Shown: in pieces, positions 9,004 through 60,420 of the stretch
Layout: each line of letters begins with the position of its first letter
Position numbering within the stretch: position 1 is the first letter of the stretch
From: Natrinema salinisoli
GTDB taxonomy: Archaea; Halobacteriota; Halobacteria; Halobacteriales; Natrialbaceae
Assembly: GCF_020405205.1 (NCBI RefSeq)
Contig: NZ_CP084469.1
Coordinates: forward strand, 3,348,001 to 3,412,000
Length of the DNA: 64,000 nt
Reading direction: 5' to 3'
Notes under the pieces: generated by a model
What the model saw: only the letters and a program-made list of their open reading frames with translations
Told to the model about the DNA's origin: nothing
The model's database searches: none
Position numbers and translations under genes: made by a program

Positions 9004-9147
9004 GCGGTGGCGCGCGCTGTCGGCTGGCTGAACGACAGTGAGGCCAGCCGACGATATTGCGCGAGGGATGAGCGAGGGAGCGGAGCGACCGAGCGAATCG
9101 GCTGGGGAGGGTGCGGCCATTCCCTGCTGCCAGCATGAGCAGGGCAC
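9004..9147 (+). repeat. Dispersed hairpin element, copy A
   Basis: A 144-bp intergenic element. It opens with GCGGTGGCGCGCGCTGT, continues with a perfect 10-bp hairpin (9019-9028 with 9043-9052), then the block GCGCGAGGGATGAGCGAG (9059-9076), then GCGAATCGGCTGGGGAGG, and ends with CTGCTGCCAGCATGAGCAG, which is itself a short inverted repeat. The same order is found at 35685-35802, 60092-60226 and 60281-60420. Possible roles are a REP-like element, a MITE or an RNA; see findings. Confidence 0.75.
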
Positions 9148-9197
9148 TTGTCTCCGTTGGGATCCCACCCTCGCTCACTTCTATTCGTGTGGACTGC

Positions 9198-9440
9198 TCA
9201 GTCTGTGGGCATCGCACCTATCATAATGAACAGTCCAATCGGAATCAAAATCGCTAGAAATGCCCACCGATGCTCGTTCGTCCATTTCCGCACCCCTGTG
9301 GAAGTAAGCCGCAAGACCGCTATCGTACTGAGTAATAGAAGCCCGATTGCACTTATCGGATTACCAGCGATCCCCATCCAGAGGGCAACTGGGAGGAGGA
9401 GAACTGCAGTAACGATATCTGCCGATCTCTCACCAGTCAT
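9198..9440 (-). CDS. Small hydrophobic membrane protein, atypical base composition
   Basis: An 80-residue protein (start MTGERSADIV; an in-frame ATG at 9467 would add nine residues) with two to three membrane spans: IVTAVLLLPVALWMGIAG, AIGLLLLSTIAVLRL and WAFLAILIPIGLFIMIGA. Codon use is clearly less GC-rich than that of neighbours, with A/T at many third positions. It lies between repeat copy A and the duplicated thiolase end, so it may have arrived by transfer. Not recognised; it could be an orphan or part of an integrated element. Confidence 0.45.
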   Translation of the reverse strand: MTGERSADIVTAVLLLPVALWMGIAGNPISAIGLLLLSTIAVLRLTSTGVRKWTNEHRWAFLAILIPIGLFIMIGAMPTD

Positions 9441-9533
9441 ACTTTCGGCTATCGAATTACAGATCAAATGCGTTCCGAAATAAAAGCGAGAAATCGTTCA
9501 CTACAGGTGGCCAGAAGGCCCAGATCAACCGTC

Positions 9534-9568
9534 TCAGTTAACGTCGAACTCGATCGCCGCACCCTGAC
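9534..9568 (-). repeat. Direct repeat: extra copy of the thiolase 3' end
   Basis: These 35 bp are identical to 9800-9834, which hold the last ten codons and the TGA of the thiolase gene. The identity stops sharply on both sides. It reads as a leftover of a recombination or duplication that involved the gene end. Confidence 0.75.
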
Positions 9569-9799
9569 GCGACCACCTTTTGTCTCGGTCGTCGACCGCG
9601 GTTCTTGCTCACTTCGTTCGCTCCGAACCGCACTCTCCTCCCTCGCAAAATCTGTCTGGCGAGAGCAAAGCTCTCGCTGACCTTCGCTCACTTCGTTCGC
9701 GAAGAGACCAAAAAGCTCAGACCAACCGTCTGCTCGCGGGTCATTACATTCCCCGCTCGCGATCCCGCGGTTCTCGGCCGTTGGCCTCCGAACCGCGCT
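9569..9799. other. Non-coding spacer between the two copies of the thiolase 3' end
   Basis: No gene is seen. It holds several short palindromes of the kind CTCACTTCGTTCGC and one perfect hairpin, GCGAGAGC at 9659-9666 with GCTCTCGC at 9670-9677, which could slow or end transcription from either side. Such low-complexity palindromes are frequent in spacers of this group. Confidence 0.4.
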
Positions 9800-10936
9800 T
9801 CAGTTAACGTCGAACTCGATCGCCGCACCCTGACCGAAGCCGACGCACAGCGTCGCCAGGCCGAGGCCGCCGCCGCGCTTTTGCAGCTCGTTGATCAGCG
9901 TCACCGGGAGGCGAGCGCCCGAGGCACCCAGCGGGTGACCCAGCGCGATCGCGCCGCCGTTGACGTTGAAGATCTCGGGGTCGATACCGAGTTCGTCCCG
10001 GGAGTAGATCGACTGGCTCGCGAAGGCCTCGTTGAGCTCCACCAGATCGTAGTCGTCGATGTCGCGGCCGTTGCGCTCGAGCAGGCCCCGCGTCGCCGGG
10101 ACCGGGCCGATACCCATGACGGTGGGGTCGACGCCGGCGACGTTGTTCCGGCCGACTTCGGCCATGATCTCGAGGTCGTGTTCCTCGGCGAAGGCCTCGC
10201 TGGTGACCAGTAGGGCGGATGCGCCGTCGGAGATCTGGGAAGCGTTGCCGGGCGTGACGGTGCCGTCCTCCTTGAAGACGGTGGGGAGTTCGGCGAGCTT
10301 CTCCGGGGTCGTGCCGGGGCGGATGCCCTCGTCTTCCTCGACGGTGCCGTCCTCGGTCTCGATCGGGACGATCTCGTCGTCGAAGCGGCCCGACTCGGTC
10401 GCCTCGGTGGCGCGCTGCTGGCTACGGGCGGCGTACTCGTCCTGCTCCTCGCGGCTGACGCCGTACTCCTCGGCGACTTTCTCGGCGGTCATCCCCATCT
10501 GGAGGTCCCCGAGGTCGTACAGCTCGGAGATCTTCGGGTGGATGTGGCCGTAGCTCTCGCCCATCGCGACGCGGCTCATGCTCTCGACGCCGCCGGCGAT
10601 GACGGCGTCGCGGTTGCCGGCCGCGATGGCGTCGGAAGCGGAGATGACCGACTGCATCGAGGAGGCACACCAGCGGTTGATGGTCGTCGCCGGCACCGAC
10701 TCGCCGAGTTCCGAGAGCAGGGCGATGACGCGGGCGAGGTTGTTGTCCTGCTCCTCGCGCTGCTGGGCACAGCCCCACATCAGATCGTCGATCTCCTCAC
10801 CGGAGAGGCCGGTTTCGGCCAGAATCTCGTCGATCAGCGGGACCGAGAGATCTTCACTGCGAACGTCGGCGTATACGCCGTCTTCTTTCCCCTGCGGGGT
10901 CCGAACTGCCTTAACTACGACTGGCGTCTGTGACAT
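9800..10936 (-). CDS. Acetyl-CoA C-acyltransferase (thiolase)
   Basis: A 378-residue catalytic thiolase that cleaves 3-ketoacyl-CoA with CoA (last step of beta-oxidation) or condenses acetyl-CoA. The nucleophilic Cys is in NRWCASSMQSV (about residue 89), the GHPLGASGAR motif supplies the His (about 337), and the second Cys is in LCVGFGQGAA (about 368). Start and length are as usual for the family. A TATA-like TTTAA lies 25-30 nt upstream. The gene is not in an operon with other beta-oxidation genes; it resembles but is not identical to the thiolase at 48697. Its last 35 bp are duplicated downstream (see repeat). Confidence 0.92.
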   Translation of the reverse strand: MSQTPVVVKAVRTPQGKEDGVYADVRSEDLSVPLIDEILAETGLSGEEIDDLMWGCAQQREEQDNNLARVIALLSELGESVPATTINRWCASSMQSVISASDAIAAGNRDAVIAGGVESMSRVAMGESYGHIHPKISELYDLGDLQMGMTAEKVAEEYGVSREEQDEYAARSQQRATEATESGRFDDEIVPIETEDGTVEEDEGIRPGTTPEKLAELPTVFKEDGTVTPGNASQISDGASALLVTSEAFAEEHDLEIMAEVGRNNVAGVDPTVMGIGPVPATRGLLERNGRDIDDYDLVELNEAFASQSIYSRDELGIDPEIFNVNGGAIALGHPLGASGARLPVTLINELQKRGGGLGLATLCVGFGQGAAIEFDVN

Positions 10937-11108
10937 ATACTACCGAATGCCCCTCACGAACTTAAATCCGGTCGAACTCTCGAGGGCGGGAAAACCGTTT
11001 ACGCGACCCGGACGGCGCTGCTCGGCGTTCTTTCCGTGATCGCTGTGCCACCCCTCGCGTGATAGCTGGGTGAAAGTGACGTTTCACCTAGCGCTGACTC
11101 CTTACTGT

Positions 11109-11132
11109 ATGCCCCGGTTTGCAAGCGTATGA
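11109..11132 (+). CDS. Upstream mini-ORF (7 codons) overlapping the next start
   Basis: ATG CCC CGG TTT GCA AGC GTA TGA. The TGA overlaps the ATG of the beta-propeller gene as ATGA at 11129-11132. The TATA signal upstream is weak (GTTTCA near 11081-11086), so this is the least certain of the six similar cases. Confidence 0.25.
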   Translation: MPRFASV

Positions 11133-13093
11133 ACGGTCGAACGAGACTGATCGCGGTCGCCCTCGCGGCGTTGCTCGTGGGCTCGGTCGTCGGGGCCGGT
11201 TTCACGGGCGTGTTCGGCGAGCGGCGGCCCGCCGCTGCAGCCCTCGAGCAGGAGAACAGTTCGCTCGCCGGTGAGAACGATGCCGAATTGACGACGTTCG
11301 CGTCGGCGGACGAGTTCTCCGAGTACTTCGACGACCCATCGGGAGCCGGGTATCTGGCGGGCTCCCCGACGATCGCTCGGACGGGAGGCGACAACCTCTC
11401 GTTCGAGGAACAAGCGGACGCCGAGATGGCCGGGGACGACGGAGCCGCCGTCGAGGCGGATTCGGCGTCGGGATCGTCGTCCGGCGGGCCCGGTGGTGCC
11501 GAGCCGCGCCACTCCGAGACGAACGTTCAGGAGGCGGCCCTCGACGAACCCGATGTGCTGAAGACCGACGGCGAGTCGGTCTACTACGCCGATTACCGGT
11601 ACACGTCGCGGTGGGCCGAAACGTCGGTCGTCGACGTGAGCGACCCCGCCGAGCCCGAGTCCATCGGGTCGATTCCGCTCTCCGGCGAGTTGCTCCTCGC
11701 GGGCGACACGCTCGTCGTGCTCGGCGACGAGGAAGCCGCCGGGTACGACGTGAGCGACCCCGACGATCCCGAGGAGCAGTGGCGAAAGGACCTCGAGGCA
11801 CACATCGATACGGCCCGCCTGTACGACGGCGACCTCTACCTCGTCCTCGCCGACCGGCCGGACGACGATCCGTGTCCGATCGAGCCGTACGGCGACCGAA
11901 CCATCGAGTGTACCGACGTCGTTCGCCCGAGCGGGGACGCCGACGCGGACGCCGTCTACACTGCCGCCCGCGTCGACCCCGAGACGGGGAGTCTCGAGAG
12001 CGAGGCGAGCGTCGTCGGCTCGCAGTCGCTGTCCGCGACGTACGTCTCCGAGAACGGGATCTACCTCTCCTACACCCGATCGACCGACGAGTACGACCTG
12101 CAGCGGTCGTTCCTCGGGACCGAGAACGGCTCCGCGCTGCTCGACGCCCCGGCACGCGAGCGCGTCGCGGCCCTGGACGACCTCGAGATCTCCCGGCGCG
12201 CCAAGACCGTCGAACTGCGGGAGATCCTCGCGGACCGCTACGATCGGCTGGACGACGAGGAGCGTCGCGAGGTCCGTGAGTCGTTCCGGGACGGGCTGCG
12301 CGACTACGCCGCGGCACATCATCGCGACCTGACGACGACCGGGATCGTCAGGATCGACATCGACGGCGAGCTGACCGCCGAGGCCAGCGGTGAAGTCCCC
12401 GGAACGCCGCTCGACCAGTTCTCGATGGACGAACACGACGGCCACCTCCGGATCGCGACGACGATCCCCAGGACGCACGGCGTCGACTCCGAGAACGACG
12501 TCTACGTCCTCGATTCCGACCTCGAGACGGTCGGCTCCGTGACGGGACTGGGCGAGGGCCAGCGCATCTACTCGGTCCGCTTCGAAGGCGACGAGGGCCA
12601 CGTCGTCACCTACCGCCAGATCGACCCCTTCTACACGCTCGATCTCTCGGACCCGACGGACCCCGTCGTCGAGGGCGAACTCAAGCTGCCGGGCTTTTCG
12701 GAGTACATGCACCCCCTCGAGGACGACCTCGTGCTCGGGGTGGGACAGGAAGAGCGGCAGCCGAAAGTCACCCTCTTCGACGTGAGCGATCGCGAGGACC
12801 CGGTCGAACTCGACTCGGAGATCCTCACCGACGAGCGCTACAGCGACGTCAGTCGAACCCACACGGCCTTCCTGCAGGACGAGGCCCACGGCGTGTTCTT
12901 CGTCCCCGGCAGCGAGCACAGCTACGTGTTCGACTACCGGGACGGCGAACTCGAGGAAGTCGCCCGCGTCGACCTCGGCGGTCCCGGAACCCGTGCGATG
13001 TACGTCGACGACTACCTCTACGTCTTCGGGCAGGACGAGGCGATCGTCCTCGACGAGACGACCTGGGAGGAAACGACCCGAATCGAGCTGTAA
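11129..13093 (+). CDS. Secreted beta-propeller domain protein (C-terminal beta-propeller family)
   Basis: A 654-residue protein with an N-terminal export signal (basic MNGRTR, then hydrophobic LIAVALAALLVGSVVGAGFT, about residues 7-26), an acidic, glycine/serine-rich spacer to about residue 130, and then repeated beta-blade segments. Recurrent VDVSDPxxP motifs (VVDVSDPAEPE, YDVSDPDDPE, LSDPTDPVVE, FDVSDREDPVE) mark the blades; the family is known as 'beta-propeller domain containing, C-terminal' in archaea and bacteria. The motif NVQEAALDEPDVLKTDG is its usual entry to the propeller. It is probably anchored or released outside the cell. The function is unknown. It is preceded by the mini-ORF at 11109. 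Confidence 0.8.
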   Translation: MNGRTRLIAVALAALLVGSVVGAGFTGVFGERRPAAAALEQENSSLAGENDAELTTFASADEFSEYFDDPSGAGYLAGSPTIARTGGDNLSFEEQADAEMAGDDGAAVEADSASGSSSGGPGGAEPRHSETNVQEAALDEPDVLKTDGESVYYADYRYTSRWAETSVVDVSDPAEPESIGSIPLSGELLLAGDTLVVLGDEEAAGYDVSDPDDPEEQWRKDLEAHIDTARLYDGDLYLVLADRPDDDPCPIEPYGDRTIECTDVVRPSGDADADAVYTAARVDPETGSLESEASVVGSQSLSATYVSENGIYLSYTRSTDEYDLQRSFLGTENGSALLDAPARERVAALDDLEISRRAKTVELREILADRYDRLDDEERREVRESFRDGLRDYAAAHHRDLTTTGIVRIDIDGELTAEASGEVPGTPLDQFSMDEHDGHLRIATTIPRTHGVDSENDVYVLDSDLETVGSVTGLGEGQRIYSVRFEGDEGHVVTYRQIDPFYTLDLSDPTDPVVEGELKLPGFSEYMHPLEDDLVLGVGQEERQPKVTLFDVSDREDPVELDSEILTDERYSDVSRTHTAFLQDEAHGVFFVPGSEHSYVFDYRDGELEEVARVDLGGPGTRAMYVDDYLYVFGQDEAIVLDETTWEETTRIEL

Positions 13094-13180
13094 CGTGGCG
13101 GAGCGATTTTCCGGCGCTGTCGTCGCACTCCCCCGGGAGGGAGGGGAACTCTTTTGCCCGCCGTTTGGTAATGCCACGCC

Positions 13181-13975
13181 ATGGACGGCAACGAGACGGT
13201 CGAGCGTTCCGACGCCGGTTCCCCGGAACGGACCGACCAGTCGGCGGAGACGGACGACGGCTCGAGCGGCGAAGATGGCGGCGGCGGAGACGTCGCGACG
13301 GACGCGGGACCCGCGACGAACGGTGACAAGCCATCGACGGATAGCGACGAGGGAGTCTCCTCGAGCGATGACGAACAGGCGGCGGACACGGGCGAGGACG
13401 AGCGGGCGGCAAATACGGGCGACGATACACCGACGCCGGGCGTGCCGGACCCCGAGCCACAGGACAACGACGTCCCCGAAGACGTCCAGAAGTACGCCCG
13501 ATTCACGAAGATGGACGGTGCGCAGTACGACCGGGTCAACGAGTTCCTGCGGGACCGCACCTACATCACCGCCCGCGAGTGGGCGATCGCACGCCTCTGC
13601 TCGGACTTCCGGACCGAAACCGGCGTGGAGATGACGAAGATCGGGGAGAACCTGCCCGAACTGGTCCCCTTCATGACCGACACCTACACGCCGCAGGCGG
13701 TCAATCAGGCCCGCTCCTCCTTCGAAGACAAGGTCCGCACGGCCGGCGCGACCTTCCTCTACGGCGCGATGTGCGACTTCTTCACCGCCGAGGAGCTCGA
13801 CGACGTGATGTACGAGGCCACCGAGGTCGCCAAGTTCCTGCTCGAGGTCGAGGGCGTCGACCTCTCCGTCGAGGACGAACTCGAGGCCGAGGAGCGCATC
13901 TCCAGTGTCATGCGGGAGGTGCGGGAAGCCAGCGAGGAGCTCCGGGCGGAGGACATCGCTGAATCCGAGGAGTAG
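13181..13975 (+). CDS. DUF5806-like protein of unknown function
   Basis: A 264-residue protein. The first ~100 residues are disordered and extremely acidic (D, E, S, T, G). The conserved part starts at about 105 with KYARFTKMDGAQYDRVN and contains RTYITAREWAIARLCSDFR, IGENLPELVPFMTDTYTPQ and a helical region rich in charged residues up to the end. The family, as far as I know, is restricted to haloarchaea (DUF5806). The EWAIARLCSDFRT and YTPQAVNQAR elements look like a helical DNA- or RNA-binding unit, but this is not established. It stands alone after the beta-propeller gene. Confidence 0.6.
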   Translation: MDGNETVERSDAGSPERTDQSAETDDGSSGEDGGGGDVATDAGPATNGDKPSTDSDEGVSSSDDEQAADTGEDERAANTGDDTPTPGVPDPEPQDNDVPEDVQKYARFTKMDGAQYDRVNEFLRDRTYITAREWAIARLCSDFRTETGVEMTKIGENLPELVPFMTDTYTPQAVNQARSSFEDKVRTAGATFLYGAMCDFFTAEELDDVMYEATEVAKFLLEVEGVDLSVEDELEAEERISSVMREVREASEELRAEDIAESEE

Positions 13976-14045
13976 ACTCCGGTCCCGTCCCACGGGGCGT
14001 GACAGCGAACTATATTATGCCTGAAGCGACTCCCTCGACATATCG

Positions 14046-14477
14046 ATGACCGACTCCCGCGATGCCACGTCGAACTCGAGCGATGACGGACAGCTCTCAC
14101 CCGACCTGATCGCTGCGGTCGCCGGGGTGGTCGACGTGCCGGTGTTCGCGTATCTCGGGCTCCTGTTGTTCGACGACCTCGCGTTCGGGGCCGTCGTCGG
14201 AGTGCTGGTCGGCCTCGGCACCTACCTGTTCCTTCCCGCTGCGATCGCGGACGACGAGGACCGCGGACCCGACGAGACGCCCCCGGTGGACGCGACACAT
14301 CCGCTTCGCGGCTTCCACCGAACGGCGGCCGGACTCGCGCTTCCGCCGACCGGAATCCTCCTGTTCGCCTGGCGGCTCGTCTCCGACGCGCTCCTCGTCG
14401 GCGTCCTCGCCACGCTCGTCGTCGTGGCGGTAATCTACGTCTCCCTCGCGGTCTTGCTTCCACCCCGGCTCGCGTGA
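14046..14477 (+). CDS. Haloarchaeal four-helix membrane protein, unknown function
   Basis: A 143-residue protein with four predicted membrane helices (LIAAVAGVVDVPVFAYLGLLLF and AFGAVVGVLVGLGTYLFLPAAI in the first half; TAAGLALPPTGILLFAWRLV and LLVGVLATLVVVAVIYVSLAVL in the second; all given in part) separated by an acidic loop with PDETPPVDATHP. No catalytic motif is recognised. An AT-rich stretch CTATATTATG about 30 nt before the ATG is a good leaderless promoter. Confidence 0.55.
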   Translation: MTDSRDATSNSSDDGQLSPDLIAAVAGVVDVPVFAYLGLLLFDDLAFGAVVGVLVGLGTYLFLPAAIADDEDRGPDETPPVDATHPLRGFHRTAAGLALPPTGILLFAWRLVSDALLVGVLATLVVVAVIYVSLAVLLPPRLA

Positions 14478-14596
14478 GGTCACCGACTGGCAATTCGGGA
14501 CGACCCGTCACCGTTCGATCGACGGGGTAGCCGGCGGTCCGCGGGTTGCGACTGCCAGTCCGCTCCTTTTCCCCGCTCGAGGGATAGTGCGCCCGC

Positions 14597-16069
14597 ATGA
14601 GTGACCTTCCTCTGGAACCCGACGGCGGCTGGGAGTCGCTGTATCTCGCGGGCGACTGGACCGATACCGGTGAACGAGACGCGATCACCGACGAGAATCC
14701 CTTTACGCGCGAGGAGATCGCGACCGTCCCCGCGGGCACCGAAGACGACGTCGACCGGGCCTACGAGGCCGCCGCCGAGGCACAGGACGCCTGGAGTCAG
14801 CAGCCGCCACAGGCTCGAGCCGGCGTACTCAACGCCGCCATCGAGTTCGTCGGCGACCACCGCGAGGAGATCGCCGAACTGCTGGCCCGCGAATCCGGCA
14901 GCACGCAGGTCAAGTGCGAGGCCGAATTGCAGACCGCACGGGGGATGATGCAGCAGGCCGCCAGCTACCCCTTCCGGATGGACGGCCAGCACATGGACTC
15001 GATCACCCCGGGGAAGGAGAACATCGCCGAGCGCGTGCCGGTCGGCGTCGTCGGGGTGATCTCCCCGTGGAACTTCCCGCTGCACCTCTCGATGCGGGCG
15101 GTCGCACCGGCGATCGCGGCCGGAAACGCGGTCGTCCTCAAACCGGCCTCGAACACGCCGATCACGGGCGGGCTCTTGCTCGCACGGATCTTCGAGGAAG
15201 CCGGCGTTCCCGAGGGCGTCCTCAGCGTCGTTCCCGGGCGCGGTTCCGAGATCGGCGACGCGGTCGCTGGCCACGAGATTCCCCGAGTCCTCGCCTTTAC
15301 CGGCTCGACCGAGATCGGCCAGCGCGTGGCCGAGAAAGCGGCCGGCAACTGTGCGCTCCCCGCGCTCGAGCTCGGTGGGAACAACGTCCACGTGGTCACG
15401 GACGGAGCCGACCTCGAGCGGGCCGTCGACGGCGGCGTCTTCGGCTCGTTCCTCCATCAGGGCCAGATCTGTATCTCGACGAACCGCCATCTCGTCCACG
15501 AGTCGATCTACGACGACTACGTGGACGCGCTCGCCGACCGGGCCGCCTCGCTGCCGACCGGCGATCCGACGGACGGCGATACGGTCATCGGCCCCATCAT
15601 CGACGAGAGCCAGCGCGATCAGATCCTCGACTACGTCGAGCAGTCCGTCGACGAGGGAGCGACCCTCGAGACCGGCGGCGACGCGGACGGGCTGGTCGTC
15701 GAACCGACCGTGCTCTCGGACGCCGACAACGACATGGCCGCGGCGTGCAACGAACACTTCGGCCCCGTCGCGCCGGTTATCCCGTACTCGAGCGACGAGG
15801 AGGCGATCGAGCTGGCGAACGATACGATCCACGGGCTGTCGGGCTCGGTTCACAGCGAAGACGTGGAGCAGGCCCGCCGGATCGCGGACGGGATCGAGAC
15901 GGGGATGATCCACATCAACGACCAGCCGATCAACGACGAGCCCCACGTCCCCTTCGGCGGGATGAAGCAGTCCGGGATGGGCCGGTACAACGGCGAGCAG
16001 ATCCTGGACGAGCTGACGACGACCAAGTGGATCTCGGTGCAACACGAGCCGCGAGAGTATCCGTTCTGA
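14597..16069 (+). CDS. Aldehyde dehydrogenase, NAD(P)-dependent
   Basis: A 490-residue member of the ALDH superfamily that oxidises aldehydes to acids. Residues seen: the catalytic base in ALELGGNNVHVV (Glu at about 256), the nucleophilic Cys in HQGQICISTNR (about 290), the oxyanion Asn in VISPWNFPLHL (about 157), the nucleotide-binding KPASNTPITG and FTGSTEIG. The C-terminal MKQSGMGRYNGEQ is usual for salicylaldehyde/benzaldehyde-type and related ALDHs, but substrate cannot be fixed. It is a single gene followed directly by a MITE-like palindrome at 16076. Confidence 0.92.
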   Translation: MSDLPLEPDGGWESLYLAGDWTDTGERDAITDENPFTREEIATVPAGTEDDVDRAYEAAAEAQDAWSQQPPQARAGVLNAAIEFVGDHREEIAELLARESGSTQVKCEAELQTARGMMQQAASYPFRMDGQHMDSITPGKENIAERVPVGVVGVISPWNFPLHLSMRAVAPAIAAGNAVVLKPASNTPITGGLLLARIFEEAGVPEGVLSVVPGRGSEIGDAVAGHEIPRVLAFTGSTEIGQRVAEKAAGNCALPALELGGNNVHVVTDGADLERAVDGGVFGSFLHQGQICISTNRHLVHESIYDDYVDALADRAASLPTGDPTDGDTVIGPIIDESQRDQILDYVEQSVDEGATLETGGDADGLVVEPTVLSDADNDMAAACNEHFGPVAPVIPYSSDEEAIELANDTIHGLSGSVHSEDVEQARRIADGIETGMIHINDQPINDEPHVPFGGMKQSGMGRYNGEQILDELTTTKWISVQHEPREYPF

Positions 16070-16075
16070 GGCGAT

Positions 16076-16156
16076 ATAGTAGCCGCTGAAACGATTTAAC
16101 ACTACTCGCAACGCAGTCGTGCGAGTAGGTTTGCATCGACTTTCAGTGGCTACTAT
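16076..16156. mobile_element. MITE-like palindromic element, 81 bp
   Basis: Terminal inverted repeats ATAGTAGCCGCTGAAA (16076-16091) and its complement at 16141-16156 match at 15 of 16 positions. An inner perfect 9-bp hairpin, CTACTCGCA (16102-16110) with TGCGAGTAG (16120-16128), is nested in the centre. No coding sequence and no clear target-site duplication is seen. It looks like a non-autonomous transposon end pair. A diverged relative of the terminal sequence may be at 17634-17656. Confidence 0.6.
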
Positions 16157-16265
16157 CGGGGATTCGCTGCGGCGATGACTCCTCCTCGCAGGCCGGAGTG
16201 CGAACGCCGCTACGCGTGCGATTTCGTTTCGGAATGCTTGAGGTTCGCTGTCGGAAACAACGACT

Positions 16266-17423: not shown

Positions 17424-17448
17424 ACCGTCCCGAAGCAATCGTCCGCAT

Positions 17449-17507
17449 TCACCGCTCACGATATGTTCGCAGCGGCAATGCGAAGGAACGGGATTCGAAC
17501 CACGCCC
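17449..17507. repeat. tRNA-Leu 3'-end fragment, outer diverged copy
   Basis: The stretch from 17479 (TGCGAAGGAACGGGATTCGA, continuing to ACCACGCCC) resembles the 3' end of the tRNA-Leu at 18858, with two changes and one inserted base. The preceding ~30 bp (TCACCGCTCACGA and onward) are also shared with the fragment at 18647-18700. It may be an old attachment-site scar; with the copies at 18559-18700 it brackets the RNase HI gene. Confidence 0.5.
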
Positions 17508-17656: not shown

Positions 17657-17694
17657 GGAGCCGGAGGTTCCGAATCGGAAGCGGCGTACCGTTC

Positions 17695-35684: not shown

Positions 35685-35802
35685 GTGTTCTGCTATCGTG
35701 GCAACAGTGAATAGCCACGCCCTCCCCAACCGACTCGCTCGCGTGATTTCGAACCGCGATGCGGCCAGCGAGGCCGCACCGCGGTACAGCACGCGCCACC
35801 GC
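35685..35802 (-). repeat. Dispersed hairpin element, copy B (shortened)
   Basis: Read on the minus strand, it opens with GCGGTGGCGCGTGCTGT and closes with TTGCCACGATAGCAG, as copy D does. The central hairpin is 14 bp (35753-35766 with 35772-35785) with one mismatch, and its sequence differs from copy A. The block GCGCGAGGGATGAGCGAG of the other copies is missing, replaced by a short link to GCGAGTCGGTTGGGGAGGG. It sits in the 448-bp spacer between the MaoC and SDR genes. Confidence 0.7.
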
Positions 35803-35821
35803 ACGCCGGATGGTCGAATAG

Positions 35822-50813: not shown

Positions 50814-50829
50814 TCCTACCGCTCGCCCG

Positions 50830-52266: not shown

Positions 52267-52272
52267 CGACGA

Positions 52273-53493
52273 TCAGTCCGTGACCCCCATCGACTTCGCG
52301 ATCGTGTTGAGCTGGATCTCGTCGGTCCCCTCGACGATCCGCAGGATACGCGCCTGGTGGACGATATCCATATACGGATTCTCCTCGGCCAGTCCGTTGG
52401 CCCCGTGGACCTGGACGGCCGCGTCGGCGACCTCCCACAGCACGTTCGTCGCGAACCACTTCAGTATCGAGGAGTCCATCACCGTCCGCTCGCCTTCGGC
52501 CATCTTCCAGGCGAGTTTGAGCCCCGCCGCGTCCGCGGCGTAGGTCTTCGCCCGCCCCTCCGCGAGCTTGGTCGAGACCTGCTGGAAGTTCCCGATCGAT
52601 CGCCCGAACGCCTCGCGCTCGGTGACGTACTCGGTCGCGTCCTCGAGCAGGAACTCTGCGTACCCGACGGCTTCGGCCCCTAACTCGAGGCGCCCCAGCG
52701 AGAGGAACTCCATCGCGGCGTAGAACGCCTCGTCGACCTCGCCGAGCACGCGATCGTCGGGAACCCGGACGTCGTCCAGTATAATTTCGGCCTGCGACCC
52801 CTCGGCACCCACGGCGTTGTTGTACGACCCCAGTTCGTACTCGTCGCGCTCGACGATGAAGCACGTGATGCCGCCGTAGCGGCCGGCCTCCTCCTGTGGG
52901 GTCGTCCGGGCGAACAACTGGACGAAGTCGGCGTAGGGCGCGTTGGTGATCCACTGTTTGCGCCCGTTGATGACCCACTCGTCGCCGTCCCTCTCCGCCG
53001 TCGTCTCCATGTTCGGCGAGTCCGACCCGTAGCCCGGCTCGGTCTGGGCGAACGCCGTCGACTTCTCGGCCCGCACGGTCGGCTCGAGGTAGCGTTCTAC
53101 CTGCTCGCCCTCGGCCTGCAACAGGAGCGGCTTCGGCCCCTCCGGCCCGGCGAGGGCGTAGCGCTCGAGCCCGCCGCCGTGGGATGCGAGGTGTTTCTTC
53201 GCTCGGTACCAGGTGACCGGCGAGACGCCCTCGCCGCCCGCCACTTCGGGCAGGTTCATCGCGTAGAAGCCGCCCTCCGCCGATCGCCGCCGGATCTCCT
53301 CGCGGGCCTCGAGCACCTCGTCGGTCCAGCGCCCGTTCTCGTGGTGGCCCTTCCTGGGATTCGTGTAGACGTCTCCCAGTTCCTCGACGATCGGGTCGAC
53401 CTCGCGCTCGATGAACTCGTCCAGACTGTCGAGGATCAGTTCGGTCTCCTCGTCGGTGTCGAAACTCACGCCGCCTGTCGTGTTTGCTACCAT
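52273..53493 (-). CDS. Acyl-CoA dehydrogenase
   Basis: A 406-residue flavoenzyme. AFAQTEPGYGSDSPNMETTA (about residues 148-167), WVINGRKQWITNAPYADF (about 175-192) and the catalytic Glu in RIVEGTDEIQLNTIAKSMG (about 391) are all present. The N-terminal helical domain has a short acidic insert with TNPRKGHHENGR (about 44-55), also known in haloarchaeal homologues. It lies between a ligase (28-nt gap) and an amidase (6-nt gap) in one operon and takes electrons from the activated acyl-CoA. Third acyl-CoA dehydrogenase of the window. Confidence 0.93.
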   Translation of the reverse strand: MVANTTGGVSFDTDEETELILDSLDEFIEREVDPIVEELGDVYTNPRKGHHENGRWTDEVLEAREEIRRRSAEGGFYAMNLPEVAGGEGVSPVTWYRAKKHLASHGGGLERYALAGPEGPKPLLLQAEGEQVERYLEPTVRAEKSTAFAQTEPGYGSDSPNMETTAERDGDEWVINGRKQWITNAPYADFVQLFARTTPQEEAGRYGGITCFIVERDEYELGSYNNAVGAEGSQAEIILDDVRVPDDRVLGEVDEAFYAAMEFLSLGRLELGAEAVGYAEFLLEDATEYVTEREAFGRSIGNFQQVSTKLAEGRAKTYAADAAGLKLAWKMAEGERTVMDSSILKWFATNVLWEVADAAVQVHGANGLAEENPYMDIVHQARILRIVEGTDEIQLNTIAKSMGVTD

Positions 53494-53521
53494 AGTGAAA
53501 TCTGTCTATCGCCGGAACCGC

Positions 53522-55162
53522 TCACTGCTGGGGCGCCGGTTCGTCGTCTTCGGCCTCGAGGACCACGTCGAACTGGTCGCGAAGCGTCTTCTTGTCGAAC
53601 TTTCCGGTCGACGTCTTCGGTATCTCGTCGACGAACTCGTAGACGTCCGGCAGCCACCACGAGGGGAACGTCTCCGCGAGGTGGGCCTCGAGGTCGTCTG
53701 CGTCGATCGTCGCCCCGTCTCGCGGCACCACGACCGCCATCGGCCGCTCCTGCCAGCGCTCGTGCTCGACCGCGATGACGGTGGCCTCGGTGACGTCCTC
53801 GTGGCCGATCAATTCGTTCTCGAGTTGCACCGACGAGATCCACTCGCCCCCGGACTTGATGACGTCCTTGTCGCGGTCGACGACGTCGACGTAGCCCAGT
53901 TCGTCCCGCGTGGCGATGTCGCCGGTCCGCAGGAATCCGTCGTCGGTAAAGGCCTGCTCGTTCTCCTCGGGCCGGTCGTGATAGCCGTCGGTCACCCAGG
54001 GACTGCGGACCTGCAACTCGCCCATCGTCTCCCCGTCGGCGGGAATTTCCTCGCCGTCGTCGTCCACGATACGGGTCTGCATCCCCGGAACGGGCAACCC
54101 TGCCTTGGTCCGGTACTCGTATTGTTCGTCGCTCGGGAGGTCCGCGGCCTCCTTGCGAAGCGTGCTGAGCGTCCCCAGCGGCGAGGTCTCGGTCATTCCC
54201 CAGCCCTGGATGATCGGCGCGTCGTACTCCTCGTCGTAGCGGCGAATGAGCGACTCGGGCGGCGCGGAGCCGCCGACCGTCAGCCGGTCGATGTTCGAGA
54301 TGTCGACCTCGGGGTTCTCGTCTAAGAACTCGGCCATCTCGAGCCAGATCGTCGGCACCGCCGCTGAGAACGTCACGTCCTCCTCGGCGATGAGGCGCGC
54401 GATCGACTCCGGATCGGTGTGGACCGACGGGAAGACCTGCTTGGCCCCGACGAACGTCGCGGCGTAGGGGATCCCCCAGCCGTTCGCGTGGAACATCGGC
54501 ACGACCGGCAGGACGACGTCGCTCTCCCCGACACCGTTGGCGTCCGTGTGGCCGCACATGATGCTGTGCAAGTACATCGCCCGGTGCGAGTAGGACACAC
54601 CCTTGGGAAGCCCCGTCGTCCCCGACGTGTGGCACATGCCGTACTCCGCGTCCTCGTCGATGTCGGGCCAGTCGTACTCCGCGGGCTGGTCCTCGAGCAG
54701 GGACTCGTAGTCCGTGACCGGCTCGAGACTCGTGTCCGGGACCTCGTCGTCGAGGACGACGTACTGCTCGACCGTCTCGAGCTCGTCGGCGTTGGCCTCG
54801 ACCTTCTCGATGAGCCCGGGATCGACGAAGATCACCCGATCCTCGGCGTCGTCGATCGTGTGGACGAAGTGGTGATCGGGCAGCCGCATGTTGCACATGT
54901 GGATCGAGCGCCCCGAGCAGGCCGGCCCGAAGTACAGTTCGAAGTGCCGGTAGTGGTTCGTCGCGACGACGCCGACCCGCTCGCCCGCCTCGAGACCGAG
55001 GTCGTCGAGCGCGTGCGCGAGCTTATTGATTCGCTCGCCGGCGTCGGCGTACGTGTATCGATGCGTGCTCCCGTCGGGCAGTTTCGTCACGAGTTCCCGG
55101 TCCGGGAACAGGTCGATCGCCCGCTCGAGAAGCTTGTCAAGTGTTAACTCGACGCTCATCAT
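53522..55162 (-). CDS. Acyl-CoA synthetase, FadD3/long-chain-like
   Basis: A 546-residue AMP-forming ligase. The phosphate-binding motif is CHTSGTTGLPKGVSYSHRAM (about residues 175-194), followed by GWGMTETSPLGTLS (about 324-337), the hinge FLRTGDIATRDELGYVDVVDR (about 409-428) and the A10 Lys in IPKTSTGKFDKKTLRDQF (about 516-533). CHTSGTTG in place of the more common YTSGTTG, and the MTxTSP element, are usual for medium/long-chain and 'fatty-acid--CoA ligase' types with about 540 residues. It precedes the acyl-CoA dehydrogenase by 28 nt. Confidence 0.93.
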   Translation of the reverse strand: MMSVELTLDKLLERAIDLFPDRELVTKLPDGSTHRYTYADAGERINKLAHALDDLGLEAGERVGVVATNHYRHFELYFGPACSGRSIHMCNMRLPDHHFVHTIDDAEDRVIFVDPGLIEKVEANADELETVEQYVVLDDEVPDTSLEPVTDYESLLEDQPAEYDWPDIDEDAEYGMCHTSGTTGLPKGVSYSHRAMYLHSIMCGHTDANGVGESDVVLPVVPMFHANGWGIPYAATFVGAKQVFPSVHTDPESIARLIAEEDVTFSAAVPTIWLEMAEFLDENPEVDISNIDRLTVGGSAPPESLIRRYDEEYDAPIIQGWGMTETSPLGTLSTLRKEAADLPSDEQYEYRTKAGLPVPGMQTRIVDDDGEEIPADGETMGELQVRSPWVTDGYHDRPEENEQAFTDDGFLRTGDIATRDELGYVDVVDRDKDVIKSGGEWISSVQLENELIGHEDVTEATVIAVEHERWQERPMAVVVPRDGATIDADDLEAHLAETFPSWWLPDVYEFVDEIPKTSTGKFDKKTLRDQFDVVLEAEDDEPAPQQ

Positions 55163-55233
55163 AGTCGTTCTCAGTATTCTGTCCAGTACCTTATGATTTG
55201 GGACGAGGACGTTCTCGTGCGGGGGGCACGGTC

Positions 55234-56397
55234 TCAGCGGATGACGCCCGCGTCGCGAAGGGCGGCTCGGTCGTCCTCGTCGTATCCGACCGACGCGAGC
55301 AGTTCGTCGGTATGCTCACCGTGACCCGGGACCGATTCGTCGTGGCTTTCGGGCACGTTCGACCCCCTCGCGGGGAAGCCGATCCGCGGCGGTGCGTCGT
55401 CGGGCCGTTCGATCAGCCCGCGGGCCTCGAGCTGCGGGTGGTCGACGGCCTCGGCCGGCGTACACACCGGCCCGACCATCGTCTCGTCGCTCAGATCCCC
55501 GAGCCACGCGTCCCGCGACCGGGTCGCGAACAGTGCCTCGAGTTCCTCCCGAACGGCGGTCAGTTCGGCCGAGTCCTCGGTCCCGTGGAGGTCGACGAGG
55601 TCCTCGCGGCCGGCCTCCTCGCAGAAGGCCGTCCAGAACTTCGGCTCGAGCGCCGCGAGGGTCACGTACCGCCCGTCGGCGGTCTCGTACACGTCGTACC
55701 ACGGAACCCCTCCGGTGAGGGCCGTCTCGCCGGGCCGAGGATCGCCGCCCGTGAGCGCCTCGTGGGCGACGGCCTGCGAAAAGGAGGCGACCACGTCGGT
55801 CATCGACACGTCGATATATTCGCCGCCGTTGCCCAGCTCTCGCGAGAGCAGCCCGCCGATGATACTAAAGGCCGCGAACAGCCCGCCGCCGAGATCGCCG
55901 ATCTGGTAGCCCGGGATCTGGGGGGCCATCGACTCGTCTTCGCGGGTCATGTCGAGCAATCCGGCGACGCCGACGTAGTTGAGGTCGTGGCCCGCGCGTT
56001 CGGCGTACGGGCCGGTCCCCCCGTACCCCGAAAGCGAGCAGTAGACGAGGTCCTCGTTGTACTCGAGCAGCGTCTCGTAATCGATCTCGAGTCGGTCGGC
56101 GACCCCCGGTCGAAACTGCTCGAAGACGACGTCGGCTTCCTCGACGAGCCGGTAGAACGCGGTCGTCCCCGCCTCCGATTTCAGGTCGAGCGCGATGCTT
56201 CGCTTGCCGCGATTGACGCTGTCGAACAGCGCGCCGACGTCGCGATCGGTCGTCGGCGGCGTATACCGCGCGTAGTCGCCCGCATCGGTGTCCTCGACTT
56301 TGACGACGTCTGCGCCGGCGTCGGCGAGCAATTGGGTCGCGTACGGTCCCGGAAGCAAGCGCGACAGATCGAGTATCCGAACCGAATCGAGTTGCAT
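55234..56397 (-). CDS. CaiB/BaiF family CoA-transferase (class III)
   Basis: A 387-residue class III CoA-transferase that moves CoA between carboxylic acids. Starts with SVRILDLSRLLPGPYATQLLADAGADVVKVED (given in part, RLLPGPYATQLLADAGADV, about residues 12-30), has the catalytic Asp in AGHDLNYVGVAGLLDMT (about 154, DLNY), and the conserved GNGGEYIDVSMTDVVA (about 197-212). These transferases activate substrates with a CoA donor such as succinyl-CoA, or act as racemase (alpha-methylacyl-CoA racemases belong here). In the five-gene minus-strand run; may racemise or activate branched-chain acids before the dehydrogenase. Confidence 0.92.
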   Translation of the reverse strand: MQLDSVRILDLSRLLPGPYATQLLADAGADVVKVEDTDAGDYARYTPPTTDRDVGALFDSVNRGKRSIALDLKSEAGTTAFYRLVEEADVVFEQFRPGVADRLEIDYETLLEYNEDLVYCSLSGYGGTGPYAERAGHDLNYVGVAGLLDMTREDESMAPQIPGYQIGDLGGGLFAAFSIIGGLLSRELGNGGEYIDVSMTDVVASFSQAVAHEALTGGDPRPGETALTGGVPWYDVYETADGRYVTLAALEPKFWTAFCEEAGREDLVDLHGTEDSAELTAVREELEALFATRSRDAWLGDLSDETMVGPVCTPAEAVDHPQLEARGLIERPDDAPPRIGFPARGSNVPESHDESVPGHGEHTDELLASVGYDEDDRAALRDAGVIR

Positions 56398-56472
56398 GAT
56401 ACCACGTCCCTGTCGCGTTTCAAAAATCTACTGTCGCCGTTCGGATCCGTCGCGACGACCGCTGCCGGACTC

Positions 56473-57405
56473 TCAGTCGTCGCCCTCGAGGGACACTAGC
56501 TCGTCGACGTCCGGGATATCGGCCGCGGCGTCCGTGATCTGTCGCATTCGATCCGTGTGCTTCTCGACCGCGTAGGCGGCGAGCTTCCCCTCCTCGAGGC
56601 CGGCGCGCTCCCCCGGATCGTCGGGCTGGAACCGATTATCCTCGGTGATCCCCTGAACCAGGGGGACGAGCTCGTTGACGGTATCCTCGACGATCGCCGG
56701 ATCGACGCCCTCCGCGATGAGCTTCTTCAACTGGTTCATGCCGAAGCCGACGTGGCGGCCCTCGTCGCTGCGGATCTTCGTAAAGCCCTGGACGAGCCCC
56801 GGCAGATGCGGAAGCTCCTCGAAGTCGCCGCCGTAGGAGGTCTGCATCCCGTAGTAGCCCGTCTGCGCGAGGATCCCCTCGACCGTGAGGTGGTAGTGAC
56901 AGTACGCCTTCGCGCGGTTTTCGGGCGTGTCCTCCTCGAGCAGCCGGAACTGCGCCTTCCGGTTGCGGTCGAACAGTTCGACGTAGGGGTCGTTGAACCA
57001 CCGCTCGTGGCGGGGATCGGACCGCTCCCAGCCCAGTTCGTCTTCGACGGTCCAGACGACCTCCCGCCAGTAGCGGTCGAAGAAGTCCGCGTGCTTGGCT
57101 TCCTCGTACATCTGGGTCGTCAGGAACAGCTGATCGTCGATATTGTCGAGCACCGTCCCCAGCGGCGCGAGATCCTCGGTGACCGCGTCCTCCCCTGCAC
57201 CGAACTTCGCGATGCCGTTGAGCGTTCCGTACCACGATTCCCGGTCGTAGCCCTCCGCCCCGTCGATGTACGTCAGCAAGTTCTCGACGTCCCGCTCGAG
57301 GTCGATCTCGCCGGGATCCCAGTGGCGCTCGACCGCGTTGCGATAGTAGCGGTTCGACTTCGAGTCCCGGTCCATCATCGCCGCCGGTGTGTACTCCGTT
57401 GCCAT
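56473..57405 (-). CDS. R2-like ligand-binding oxidase (R2lox)
   Basis: A 310-residue ferritin-fold protein of the ribonucleotide-reductase-R2-like family that carries a Mn/Fe cofactor and does not take part in deoxynucleotide synthesis. The six metal ligands are in place: E72 (GAGEDAVTEDL), E102 and H105 (EEAKHADFF), E176 (YHLTVEGILAQTGYY), E215 and H218 (IRSDEGRHVGFG). V75, three after E72, and Y171, five before E176, are the pair that forms the Val-Tyr ether cross-link in known R2lox. Bound long-chain fatty acid is seen in known structures. It starts the minus-strand run and has a TATTTAAT-type box near 57430. Confidence 0.85.
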   Translation of the reverse strand: MATEYTPAAMMDRDSKSNRYYRNAVERHWDPGEIDLERDVENLLTYIDGAEGYDRESWYGTLNGIAKFGAGEDAVTEDLAPLGTVLDNIDDQLFLTTQMYEEAKHADFFDRYWREVVWTVEDELGWERSDPRHERWFNDPYVELFDRNRKAQFRLLEEDTPENRAKAYCHYHLTVEGILAQTGYYGMQTSYGGDFEELPHLPGLVQGFTKIRSDEGRHVGFGMNQLKKLIAEGVDPAIVEDTVNELVPLVQGITEDNRFQPDDPGERAGLEEGKLAAYAVEKHTDRMRQITDAAADIPDVDELVSLEGDD

Positions 57406-57488
57406 ACCACAATCTATGGACGGCGGCTATTAAATGTGTATCCAGTGTCGTATCCGCTCGATCCCGTCTCGAGAGCGTCCGGACGGCC

Positions 57489-58874
57489 TCAGTCGGTACT
57501 TTCGCCGGCGTCTTCGTCGATGCGTTCGTGTCGCTCGAGGGAGGTCATCGTTCGGTAGAGTTCGATCCGATCGGTCTTCCGCAGTCGGTATCGGTAGTAG
57601 ACGTACGCGACGACGAACCAGCCGACGAGAACCACGCCGACGACGGGTCGCTGGAGGAGCGTGACGATCCAGAACGCGCCCGTGACGACAGCACCGCCCA
57701 GTACCGCGAGGAGGAGGCCGCGATACCGGCGGAGTCGAAACGGCGCGTTGGCGTAGTGGTTCGGGAACTCGCGCGGCAGGTTCCAGAGGCCGATCGCACA
57801 GAAAAAGTACGCGGTGAGGCTGGCCAGCCCGATAAACACGGAGAGACCGACGATCTCGCCGGCCAGGGGGACGAGCAGGAACGGCGGAACGCCGAGGACC
57901 GCGACCGCGTAGTGGGGCGTCTCGAACCGCGGATGGATCCGCGACAGCGGTGCCGGGAGAACCCCGTCGCGGCTCGCCCGCATGAGCGTCCGCGAGAAGA
58001 CGAGCAGCGTCGTGTTCACCGTCGTGACGACCGCGAAGACGGCCCCGGCGGCGACGACGTACTCACCCCACCACGGGAGGTATCGCGAGGCGACGAGCGC
58101 GAGGTCGGCCTCGGTGCCCAGTTGCGTGTACGGAACGACGCCGACGAGGACGGCGATTAGCGCCACGTAAACCAGCGCCACGATACCGATGCCGAGCCCC
58201 AGTACGAGCGGGATCGTCCGCCCGGGATCGTCGATCTCTTCGCCGAGTTCGATCAGTAATCCGAATCCGAGAAACGGATAGAACAGTGCGACCACCGCGA
58301 GGCCGAACGCGCCGTAGTCCGGGAAGAACGGCGCGTAATTGGCGGGGTCGACCGCGCCCGCACCGGGGACGATGACCGTCAGGAGTGCGATCAGGAGGCC
58401 GACGAAGAAGACGATCTGTACCTGTGCGACGACCCTGAGTCCGATCAGGTTGACGACCAGGACGAACGCGAGCAGCACGTAGACGAGCAGCGTCGACGGT
58501 ACGTCGAAGAAGATCCGGGTGTACTCGGCGAAACCCCTTGCCGTAATGAGCAACGACGCCCACGCGACCAGCGGGATCGTGACGGGAACCAGGAACCCCC
58601 AGTAGGGGGCCGTGAGCCGAGAGATGTAGACGTACAGTCCCCCGGCGACCGGCATCGCCGATCCGAGCAAGGCGTTGTACAGGACGACGAAACTCGCCGG
58701 AATCGCCGCGAGGACGATCGCCAACACGAGCGCCGGTCCCGCACTCCCCGCCAGCGGCCCCGGCAGCACGAATATCGGGACCGAAATCGCGTTGCCGACC
58801 AGCAGTGCCAGCACGCCGACGACGCCGATACTCGAGGAGAGCGTCTCCGACGGGCCGTCGGTTGCTCCGCTCAT
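57489..58874 (-). CDS. APC-family amino acid/amine permease
   Basis: A 461-residue carrier with 12 membrane helices of the amino acid-polyamine-organocation superfamily. GVVGVLALLVGNAISVPIFVLPG (given in part, LLVGNAISVPIFVLPG, about residues 22-38) is the helix-1 unwound region; ALLGSAMPVAGGLYVYISR (about 69-87) and FGLLIELGEEIDDPGRTIP (about 204-222) are family signatures. The C-terminus has a short tail MTSLERHERIDEDAGESTD. The ATGA overlap with the 58871 gene shows joint translation. The substrate (amino acid, amine, or other) is unresolved. Confidence 0.9.
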   Translation of the reverse strand: MSGATDGPSETLSSSIGVVGVLALLVGNAISVPIFVLPGPLAGSAGPALVLAIVLAAIPASFVVLYNALLGSAMPVAGGLYVYISRLTAPYWGFLVPVTIPLVAWASLLITARGFAEYTRIFFDVPSTLLVYVLLAFVLVVNLIGLRVVAQVQIVFFVGLLIALLTVIVPGAGAVDPANYAPFFPDYGAFGLAVVALFYPFLGFGLLIELGEEIDDPGRTIPLVLGLGIGIVALVYVALIAVLVGVVPYTQLGTEADLALVASRYLPWWGEYVVAAGAVFAVVTTVNTTLLVFSRTLMRASRDGVLPAPLSRIHPRFETPHYAVAVLGVPPFLLVPLAGEIVGLSVFIGLASLTAYFFCAIGLWNLPREFPNHYANAPFRLRRYRGLLLAVLGGAVVTGAFWIVTLLQRPVVGVVLVGWFVVAYVYYRYRLRKTDRIELYRTMTSLERHERIDEDAGESTD

Positions 58875-59122
58875 TCCTCCGGGGTACGGTCGGCCCGCCG
58901 CCGCTGGATCTCGTAGTCGCGAATCCGTCGTCCGAGGGCGAACCCGACGACGCCGCCGAGGACGGGCGCGACGAGGAGGAGCGCTTGTACGGTCACCAGC
59001 GGGAGGACGACCCCGACTCCGAGGCCGACCACGAGGCAGCCCTCGGGATACTGTGCCGCGGCTACTTCGCGCTCGATATCGTCCATCTCCGCCGGGACGT
59101 CTCGATACTCTCCGATTGCCAT
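58871..59122 (-). CDS. Small glycine-rich membrane protein, partner of the permease
   Basis: An 83-residue protein: acidic N-terminus (MAIGEYRDVPAEMDDIEREV), then two membrane helices, CLVVGLGVGVVLPLVTVQALL and LVAPVLGGVVGFALGRRI (about residues 27-66 in all), and a charged tail. Its stop overlaps the permease start as ATGA (58871-58874). The start at 59122 is preferred; a TATA-like CTATTTC about 27 nt upstream supports it, while the ATG at 59254 lies in non-coding-like sequence. It may be a small subunit or a stabiliser of the permease, but this is inference. Confidence 0.6.
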   Translation of the reverse strand: MAIGEYRDVPAEMDDIEREVAAAQYPEGCLVVGLGVGVVLPLVTVQALLLVAPVLGGVVGFALGRRIRDYEIQRRRADRTPEE

Positions 59123-59298
59123 GTCATACCCCACCATATCATGGGTGAAATAGCTTCGGGATGTTGACACTCTCTGGGGGAGTTGCCCGGTCGTCGTATC
59201 CGAGCAGCCGCGGCGTACGGACCGGTGAAATCGGTCACGGATCGGCGTCTCCACGCGTGTTGATAAGAACTAAGTCAGTACCCGTGAAGGATGCTGTC

Positions 59299-60036
59299 AT
59301 GGCACAAAAGCGTGCTGCCGTCGTCGGTGGCGGCATCATGGGCGCCGGTATCGCACAGGTACTCGCACGGAACGGCTACGAGGTGGCCGTCCGCGAAATC
59401 AACGAGGAACTGGCCGAGGAGGCCCGCGAACGGGTCGTGTCGGGCAACTACGGACTCGACGATGCCGTCGAAGGGGGGTACCTCTCCGAAGACGAGAAAG
59501 CCGAGGTCCTCGAGCGGCTGTCGTTCACCACGGATCTCGACGAGGCGACGAACGGCACGGATTTCGTGATCGAGGCGGTCACGGAGGACCTCGCGATCAA
59601 GGGCCAGGTCTTCCGCGATCTGGACGAGGTGACGGACGAGCAGCCGCTGTACTCGAACACGAGCGGCTTTTCGGTGACGGCGATCGCGAACGGCGTCTCC
59701 GATCCCTCCCGCGTCGCGGTCACGCACTTCTTCAACCCGGTCCCGGTCATGTCGATGGTCGAAATCGTCCAGGCACCCCAGACCGACGAGGCCGTCGTCG
59801 AACGCGCCGAGGAGCTCGTCGACGAACTCGGGAAGACCAGCGTCACCATCGACGACGACCCCGGCTCCTACGGCTTCCTCGCTAACCGCTGTCACGCGGC
59901 GATGCGAGAGGAGGCCCAGAAGATCGTCGACGAGGGTATCGCGACCGAAGAACAGGTCGACAAAGCGCTCGAGGAGGGGTACAACCTCCCCGTCGGTCCG
60001 TTCTCGCTGCGCGGCATCGGCGAGGAGTGGGACTGA
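59299..60036 (+). CDS. 3-hydroxyacyl-CoA dehydrogenase, short at the C-terminus
   Basis: A 245-residue enzyme that oxidises 3-hydroxyacyl-CoA with NAD. The dinucleotide motif VVGGGIMGAGIAQVLARNG is at about residues 7-25; catalytic Ser/His/Glu elements are in NTSGFSVTAIAN (about 120-131) and VTHFFNPVPVMSMVEIV (about 140-156), Asn in FLANRCHAAMREEAQKIV (about 195-212). Usual family members have about 285 residues. Here the C-terminal dimerisation domain stops soon after NLPVGPFSLRG. The gene is followed by repeat copies C and D, so the missing part could have been lost by their insertion. Alternatively a natural short family. Confidence 0.8.
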   Translation: MAQKRAAVVGGGIMGAGIAQVLARNGYEVAVREINEELAEEARERVVSGNYGLDDAVEGGYLSEDEKAEVLERLSFTTDLDEATNGTDFVIEAVTEDLAIKGQVFRDLDEVTDEQPLYSNTSGFSVTAIANGVSDPSRVAVTHFFNPVPVMSMVEIVQAPQTDEAVVERAEELVDELGKTSVTIDDDPGSYGFLANRCHAAMREEAQKIVDEGIATEEQVDKALEEGYNLPVGPFSLRGIGEEWD

Positions 60037-60091
60037 TAGGTCGGTTTTGCTCCCGTACCGACTCGGTTTTACTCGGACCGACGAACCGTTT

Positions 60092-60226
60092 GCAGTGGCG
60101 TGCGCTGTCGATCGGTCGGAGCGGTAGCGACGGTCGATCGATGATCTCGCGCGAGGGATGAGCGAGTGTAACGAGCGAATCGACTGGGAGGGTGTGGGTA
60201 CTCCGTGCGGGCACGATAACAGGGCG
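60092..60226 (+). repeat. Dispersed hairpin element, copy C
   Basis: Reads GCAGTGGCGTGCGCTGT (60092-60108), a central hairpin (60107-60114 with 60135-60142, 8 bp incl. one G-T), the block GCGCGAGGGATGAGCGAG (60149-60166), and GCGAATCGACTGGGAGGG, ending at GCACGATAACAGGGC. It lies about 55 bp behind the short 3-hydroxyacyl-CoA dehydrogenase. Confidence 0.7.
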
Positions 60227-60280
60227 GACTCGCTTGTCGATTCTAACGACCGTTCACCGGATATCTTCGACCGAAACAGA

Positions 60281-60420
60281 GTGCGCTGCTATCGTGGCAA
60301 CGAGGGATTCCACGTCCTCCCCAGCCGATTCGCTCACGCCTCCCGGCGCTCGCTCATCCCTCGCGCAAAGTTGTGTCGCGGTTCGTTCGTCACTCACCGC
60401 GACACAGCGCGCGCCACCGC
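60281..60420 (-). repeat. Dispersed hairpin element, copy D
   Basis: Inverted relative to copy C, with 54 bp between them. On the minus strand it reads GCGGTGGCGCGCGCTGTGTC, an 11-bp perfect hairpin (60372-60382 with 60396-60406), the block complementary to 60349-60366, GCGAATCGGCTGGGGAGG and the terminal TTGCCACGATAGCAG. C and D together can form a large cruciform of about 330 bp. The spacer 60037-60470 holds no gene otherwise. Confidence 0.72.

Follow-up and report, generated by a model that had tools for sequence, protein, structure and literature searches.

A haloarchaeal interspersed repeat with a conserved one-strand fold and frequently replaced hairpins

REP elements are short single hairpins with a 5′ GTAG-type tetranucleotide. 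The repeat described here, four copies of which (A to D) lie in a window of the Natrinema salinisoli genome (a 64,000-nucleotide stretch, G000:C1:3348001-3412000, within 4.70 Mb), resembles REP/REPIN sequences with their RAYT proteins in its many intergenic copies, hairpins, inverted pairs and stable positions. Unlike them, it is longer and has several helices, its stems are replaced, and it is untied to the presence of Y1 transposases. BOX and ERIC are also intergenic modular repeats with possible RNA folds, but the present element is archaeal and order-wide, its stems are replaced as whole units, and its bias to one strand was measured. Structured noncoding RNA families in Rfam likewise have covarying helices with conserved joints, but none matched the copies in the window or, above chance level, eight element loci. 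Among haloarchaea, the PATEs and SMRs of Haloquadratum walsbyi are transposase-free repeats; PATEs have near-terminal palindromes related to IS605-type ends and no target duplication (PMC3119063). PATEs were compared by description only; the whole-element model of the present repeat, which could miss short shared ends, gave nothing significant in the TnpB loci of its own genome or the Y1 loci of relatives.

The structure of the element is conserved on one strand, the same intergenic sites are occupied across species, whole hairpins are frequently replaced, and hairpin types recur at other sites. We estimate a probability of roughly 0.6 that the family is an old, non-autonomous, structured interspersed repeat acting as folded RNA or single-stranded DNA and remodelled by cassette exchange. 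Copies were matched with a covariance model (R1) built from 11 copies of this genome, which match by construction, at a cutoff of E ≤ 0.1. The features in the window are as follows.

9004..9147, + strand: copy A, compact element (model match G000:C1:3357004-3357146, E 2.4e-33; A is itself in the model); in order, opening block, hairpin H1, P2/H2, GGGGAGG block and 3′ domain
9011-9016 with 9058-9063, + strand: outer stem P1 of copy A (from pair counts in segments; helix 1 of the alignment)
9019-9028/9043-9052, + strand: variable hairpin H1 of copy A, arms GTCGGCTGGC/GCCAGCCGAC, perfect, tip GA-AC-GACA-GT-GA
9067..9099, + strand: helix P2/H2 of copy A, GAU-GA-GC-GA-NN / NN-GA-GC-GA-AUC, with G·A steps and a variable tip
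9100..9147, + strand: conserved GGCTGGGGAGG and 3′ domain of copy A (from the conservation profile)
35685..35803, − strand: copy B (G000:C1:3383686-3383802), between divergently transcribed genes
60091..60226, + strand: copy C, left arm of a paired element (sequence and model match)
60227..60280, no strand: spacer separating the C and D arms
60281..60421, − strand: copy D, right arm of the paired element (sequence and model match), with a perfect stem of 11 bp
60091..60421, no strand: whole tail-to-tail element C+D, a 331-bp inverted repeat

An earlier note on the window had described four copies with shared blocks and paired variable hairpins, and direct reading found them at the coordinates it gave. 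The stem of copy B has 14 bp (35772-35785/35753-35766) with one G·T, and that of copy C has 8 bp (60107-60114/60135-60142), also with one G·T, and is extendable. The block said to occur in three of the four, GCGCGAGGGATGAGCGAG, is present in A, C and D and absent from B; the block GCGAGGGATGAGCGAG is missing from copy B. All four copies lie outside genes, as had been claimed, and none of the 55 matches in this genome overlaps a called gene by even one base. Gene calls, on which the intergenic statements are based, are our own and use codon usage. The pairing of the hairpin placed between conserved parts is real, but the paired region is larger than claimed. The opening block and the GCGCG block are connected by an outer stem, and block 2 is paired to block 3 with intervening G·A steps.

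The arms of H1 were extracted with sequence anchors from 129 distinct segments, a few of which are possibly not true copies. They pair at 8/8 positions in 95 of the 129, against 14.5% when 3′ arms were dealt to other segments. This excess and the 55 own-genome matches (best E 9.4e-35) place the repeat well above chance. In the same segments, P1 pair (8,1) is GC in 83, GT in 31, AT in 11, AC in 3 and other in 1, and P1 pair (9,0) is CG in 112, TG in 8, TA in 5 and other in 4. Covariation in a larger alignment, named beforehand as a test, is present in 59 order-wide sequences (56 public haloarchaeal copies plus A, C and D; 24 named pairs). Paired cells make up 92.6% (77.3 shuffled), two-sided changes number 191 (59.5 shuffled) and the covariation score is 0.455 (0.181 shuffled), with 0/500 shuffles as high for each; slid versions score at most 0.11. 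A weaker contrast is given by the count of pairs showing at least one two-sided change (16 vs 13.6 shuffled, 22/500 as high). Paired cells reach 99.4% in P1, 85.6% in H1 (helix 2), where all 11 pairs show both-sided changes, and 97.3% in P2/H2 (helix 3). Variable pairs of P2/H2 are CG 29, UA 19 and GC 10, and GC 37, AU 9, CG 7 and GU 3; at one P2 tip pair, three pair types account for 58 of 59 sequences. Copies were chosen with anchors tolerating few changes, so P1 is partly selected and its figures somewhat inflated; H1 and the P2 tip are free of this. Shuffles ignore kinship and module exchange, and the covariation figures are no count of independent events. The covariation, a feature of structured RNAs, exceeds both the shuffled and the slid controls. 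An H-type pseudoknot drawn by eye in the 3′ domain has no supporting covariation in 136 sequences. A hammerhead-like reading of GAUGAG...CGAA was rejected, as the hammerhead core bases are absent.

Pairing kept in double-stranded DNA would be expected to leave G·T and A·C mismatches equally common. H1 stems were defined by Watson-Crick pairs alone, and the mismatches inside 100 distinct ones are G·T 34, A·C 1, G·A 49, T·C 0, G·G 11 and T·T 3. Across the 59 order-wide sequences, P1 has 56 G·U and 0 A·C, and H2 has 3 G·U and 0 A·C. Folding is better on the sense strand than on the complementary one in 219/219 core sequences, a direction that base composition alone would favour. One-sided stem mismatches indicate that one strand is the folded form. 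Judged from the sequences, that strand probably acts as RNA, which is likelier than single-stranded DNA given the abundance of G·U pairs. A protein-binding site was among the proposals of the earlier note; in double-stranded or cruciform form it would account for the palindromes, the intergenic placement and the restriction to the main contig in this genome. A cruciform is symmetric between strands, whereas the mismatches are not, and a plain double-stranded site leaves the one-strand bias unexplained; weakened by the strand test, this reading is very improbable. Template switching can perfect quasi-palindromes, and the arms could have been kept complementary in this way with no function. Such mutational palindromes would give no strand bias and would not conserve blocks between the arms, and we give them hardly any credence.

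Several results weigh against the preferred reading of the family. In H1 the order-wide bias is less pronounced, at 53 G·U against 11 A·C, with a single column pair supplying 31 of the G·U. Fold z-scores (sense/antisense) are mixed: copy A favours the sense strand (−3.11/−1.05), B (−2.02/−2.27) and D (−2.90/−3.01) fold well on both, and C (+0.98/+0.25) on neither. The hairpin tips are not GNRA, with a pyrimidine at the third base in 20 of 30 GNNA tetraloops, so RNA is not favoured by them over single-stranded DNA; the tips are compatible with single-stranded DNA as the folded form, which is less likely. No upstream TATA-like box is common to 167 5′ ends, where only a weak CCG..C.ACCG preference was seen. 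Some species of the genus have no matches or hardly any, which indicates that the element is dispensable.

The promoter result also bears on small RNAs. A stand-alone small-RNA gene, another identity proposed earlier, lacks a common promoter. A multi-copy family of such genes acting in trans, with a transcript 5′ end near TGCGGTGG, would agree with the conserved sense-strand structure and blocks. It is improbable given the same lack of a common upstream promoter, the range of matches per genome within Natrinema alone (0 to at least 52) and the Rfam searches, which gave nothing above chance for the element. At gathering score, Rfam over the window returned one tRNA only and no match to the copies; over eight element loci at E ≤ 5 it returned four matches, all below gathering score and at chance level.

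C and D had been taken as two separate copies, but together they form one inverted-repeat element, as is seen at the corresponding intergenic position in other species of Natrinema. Its ends are TGC(A/G)GTGGCG...CGCCACCGCA, and it is flanked by convergent genes for 3-hydroxyacyl-CoA dehydrogenase and enoyl-CoA hydratase (names from Pfam). Terminal inverted repeats, a feature of miniature inverted-repeat transposable elements, are present in the paired form C+D and absent from the single copies A and B. The C+D spot was placed between both flanking genes in 20 other Natrinema genomes. A full inverted pair is found in 12, both tips without the core in G012 and G015, one arm in G001 and G021, a nine- or ten-base remnant in G009 and G013, and nothing in G017 and G023. 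The B spot, placed in 16 other genomes, has tip and core in 11, the tip only in G012, and nothing in G003, G017, G023 and G026. For 37 of 47 loci of our genome (overlaps among them), a single element-bearing locus of G027, the closest genome seen, holds both flanks. The copies do not represent recent identical insertions, an outcome that had been named as a possible refutation. No target-site duplication was seen by eye, and sites that are empty or reduced (L103, L109, L112, L283) either retain remnants or have diverged too far. A search with the flanks of L024 for a clean empty site to date the insertion gave none usable.

Hairpins at these fixed sites are frequently, not universally, replaced. 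H1 identity at the C and D arms is <0.65 in 95 of 133 same-site pairs and ≥0.9 in 18. At 24 other sites (37 same-site pairs), it is <0.65 in 15 and ≥0.9 in 13, with a median of 0.74. These same-site counts leave out a group of five copies whose link is a repeated zinc-ribbon gene and not orthology. Of 7,948 pairs of copies from different sites, 0.3% reach ≥0.9, and the same hairpin types recur in the opposite arm or at other sites. Among the orthologue pairs read, L014/L305 and L022/L312 have a single module changed and the remainder nearly identical, and the members of L029/L350 differ by an insert. A compensatory point change was also seen, G-C to A-U between copy D and its G027 orthologue. 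We infer that replacement reflects gene conversion between copies. The earlier note had taken changing arms with kept pairing as the signature of selection for structure. Strong covariation and strand-specific mismatches support and sharpen this, but much of the change is replacement of whole hairpins at an orthologous site, so the covariation counts overstate independent compensatory events. The right flank of L014 carries a short tandem repeat, with a unit near CCCACACAGTCCCAGTAGAACCAGC, that starts just after the element and is unaligned to the G027 orthologue.

Enzymes that might move the element were searched in 61 genomes. With the Y1_Tnp profile, no Y1 was found in 6 of 16 same-genus genomes with at least 23 element matches, and Y1 was found in 4/4 same-genus genomes without an element match (1-7 each). 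Across 20 Y1 loci and the eight TnpB loci of our genome, no match to the element model was better than E 0.8, in a search where a whole-element model could miss short shared ends. A link to an IS200/REP transposase was rejected, as Y1 presence is untied to the element and the model search of the 28 Y1/TnpB loci was negative. Reverse transcriptase RVT_1 (PF00078) was found in 0/61 genomes. The 3′ ends of TnpB loci in our genome (L399, L400, L402) have a hairpin followed by GGGAGGATGTCA or similar, e.g. GGGGAGGATGTCA; this resembles the GGGGAGG block by eye, and nothing else matches. Element borders, from 167 5′ ends, are sharp on the 5′ side and fade on the 3′ side. The 5′ border is TGCGGTGGCG, unlike the REP-type tetranucleotide, and several helices extend across ~110-140 nt. 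A REPIN-like single-stranded DNA element, whose one-strand hairpins would be bound in trans by an IS200/IS605-type Y1 transposase, would fit the one-strand fold, the tail-to-tail inverted pairs, the lack of orientation bias and the GNNA tips. Against it stand the untied Y1 genes and the negative Y1/TnpB loci, which an extinct enzyme would escape, and we consider it unlikely. Among the three identities first proposed, a REP-like element with an absent enzyme best fits the dispersed, orientation-free distribution, and the small RNA and the protein-binding site fit less well.

All 55 R1 matches in our genome lie on the 4.19-Mb main contig and none on the other two contigs (P about 0.002 if uniform). 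They correspond to ~48 elements, because seven adjacent tandem match pairs look like single expanded elements matched twice (L334, L336, L337, L341, L344, L345, L348). Match pairs starting ≤420 bases apart are tail-to-tail in 5 cases, head-to-head in 0 and tandem in 7, the tandem pairs looking like double matches. No orientation bias relative to genes was found, the upstream gene being co-oriented in 28/55 and the downstream gene in 21/54. The matches showed no two-arc strand asymmetry of the kind that could reflect replication direction along the chromosome (237/300 shuffles as high; arcs drawn without located origins). Among 45 elements of our genome with both end anchors, 28 have ≤100 nt between anchors and 17 are expanded. 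Expanded elements, including the seven listed above, bear extra hairpins. Several carry a recurring insert with GCGCGGAACC..GGTTCCGCG plus CGGACG..CGTCCG just before AATCGG, and in some, GCGAGG and GGATGAG enclose long nested hairpins. Directly 5′ of copy A, window positions 8450-8971 hold two small open reading frames, and similar DNA recurs in the genome. One of these encodes 46 residues with two CxxC pairs and has no Pfam match. This zinc-ribbon gene was rejected as a partner gene, as it adjoins only 2/47 element loci in our genome and 3/47 in G027.

Across genomes, R1 matches at E ≤ 0.01 occur in 43/61, our own included. A phylum sample of 392 genomes was searched with the order-wide model (E ≤ 1e-4, strict filters, at most nine matches scored per genome); 36 match, our own included, and every one is in the same haloarchaeal order. 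At least 120 public genome stretches contain the exact core string, and among the matches listed (80) all are haloarchaeal by title. The core was found in 0 viral contigs. Records similar to copy D number 0/50,697 among phages and 2/72,556 among plasmids. Halosimplex loci (L136, L139, L147, L175 and others) share the 5′ half but continue into another long 3′ domain, CTGAAAGGGCGAG...GAGGGCTTTCA, with the appearance of an additional large structured unit. Among the openly licensed papers searched, none was recognised as a description of the family, and none contains the exact core string.

The compact form, of ~110-140 nt, comprises P1, the variable H1, P2/H2 with G·A steps, the GGGGAGG block and a lineage-specific 3′ domain. 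In the proposed mechanism, its hairpins would be exchanged by gene conversion between copies. The working molecule would be an RNA produced when transcription of either strand reads through the element or, with lower probability, the single-stranded DNA form of a transposition intermediate. A putative host protein reading the helices may keep the fold under selection. More tentatively, the family may be a new class of haloarchaeal modular RNA, with a conserved core (P1, P2, GGGGAGG), interchangeable peripheral helices and some 50 copies per chromosome in rich species. It would be dispersed as a selfish or domesticated repeat, and gene conversion would trade its helices between copies while selection acts on the RNA.

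Repeats between genes tend to be written off as debris. The present order-wide archaeal family keeps a one-strand fold while its stems are replaced as units, and it is a clear example with which to ask whether repeats scattered through a genome function as RNA. It also warns that covariation in repeats can arise from cassette exchange, and it gives the search for a partner protein in haloarchaea a concrete basis.

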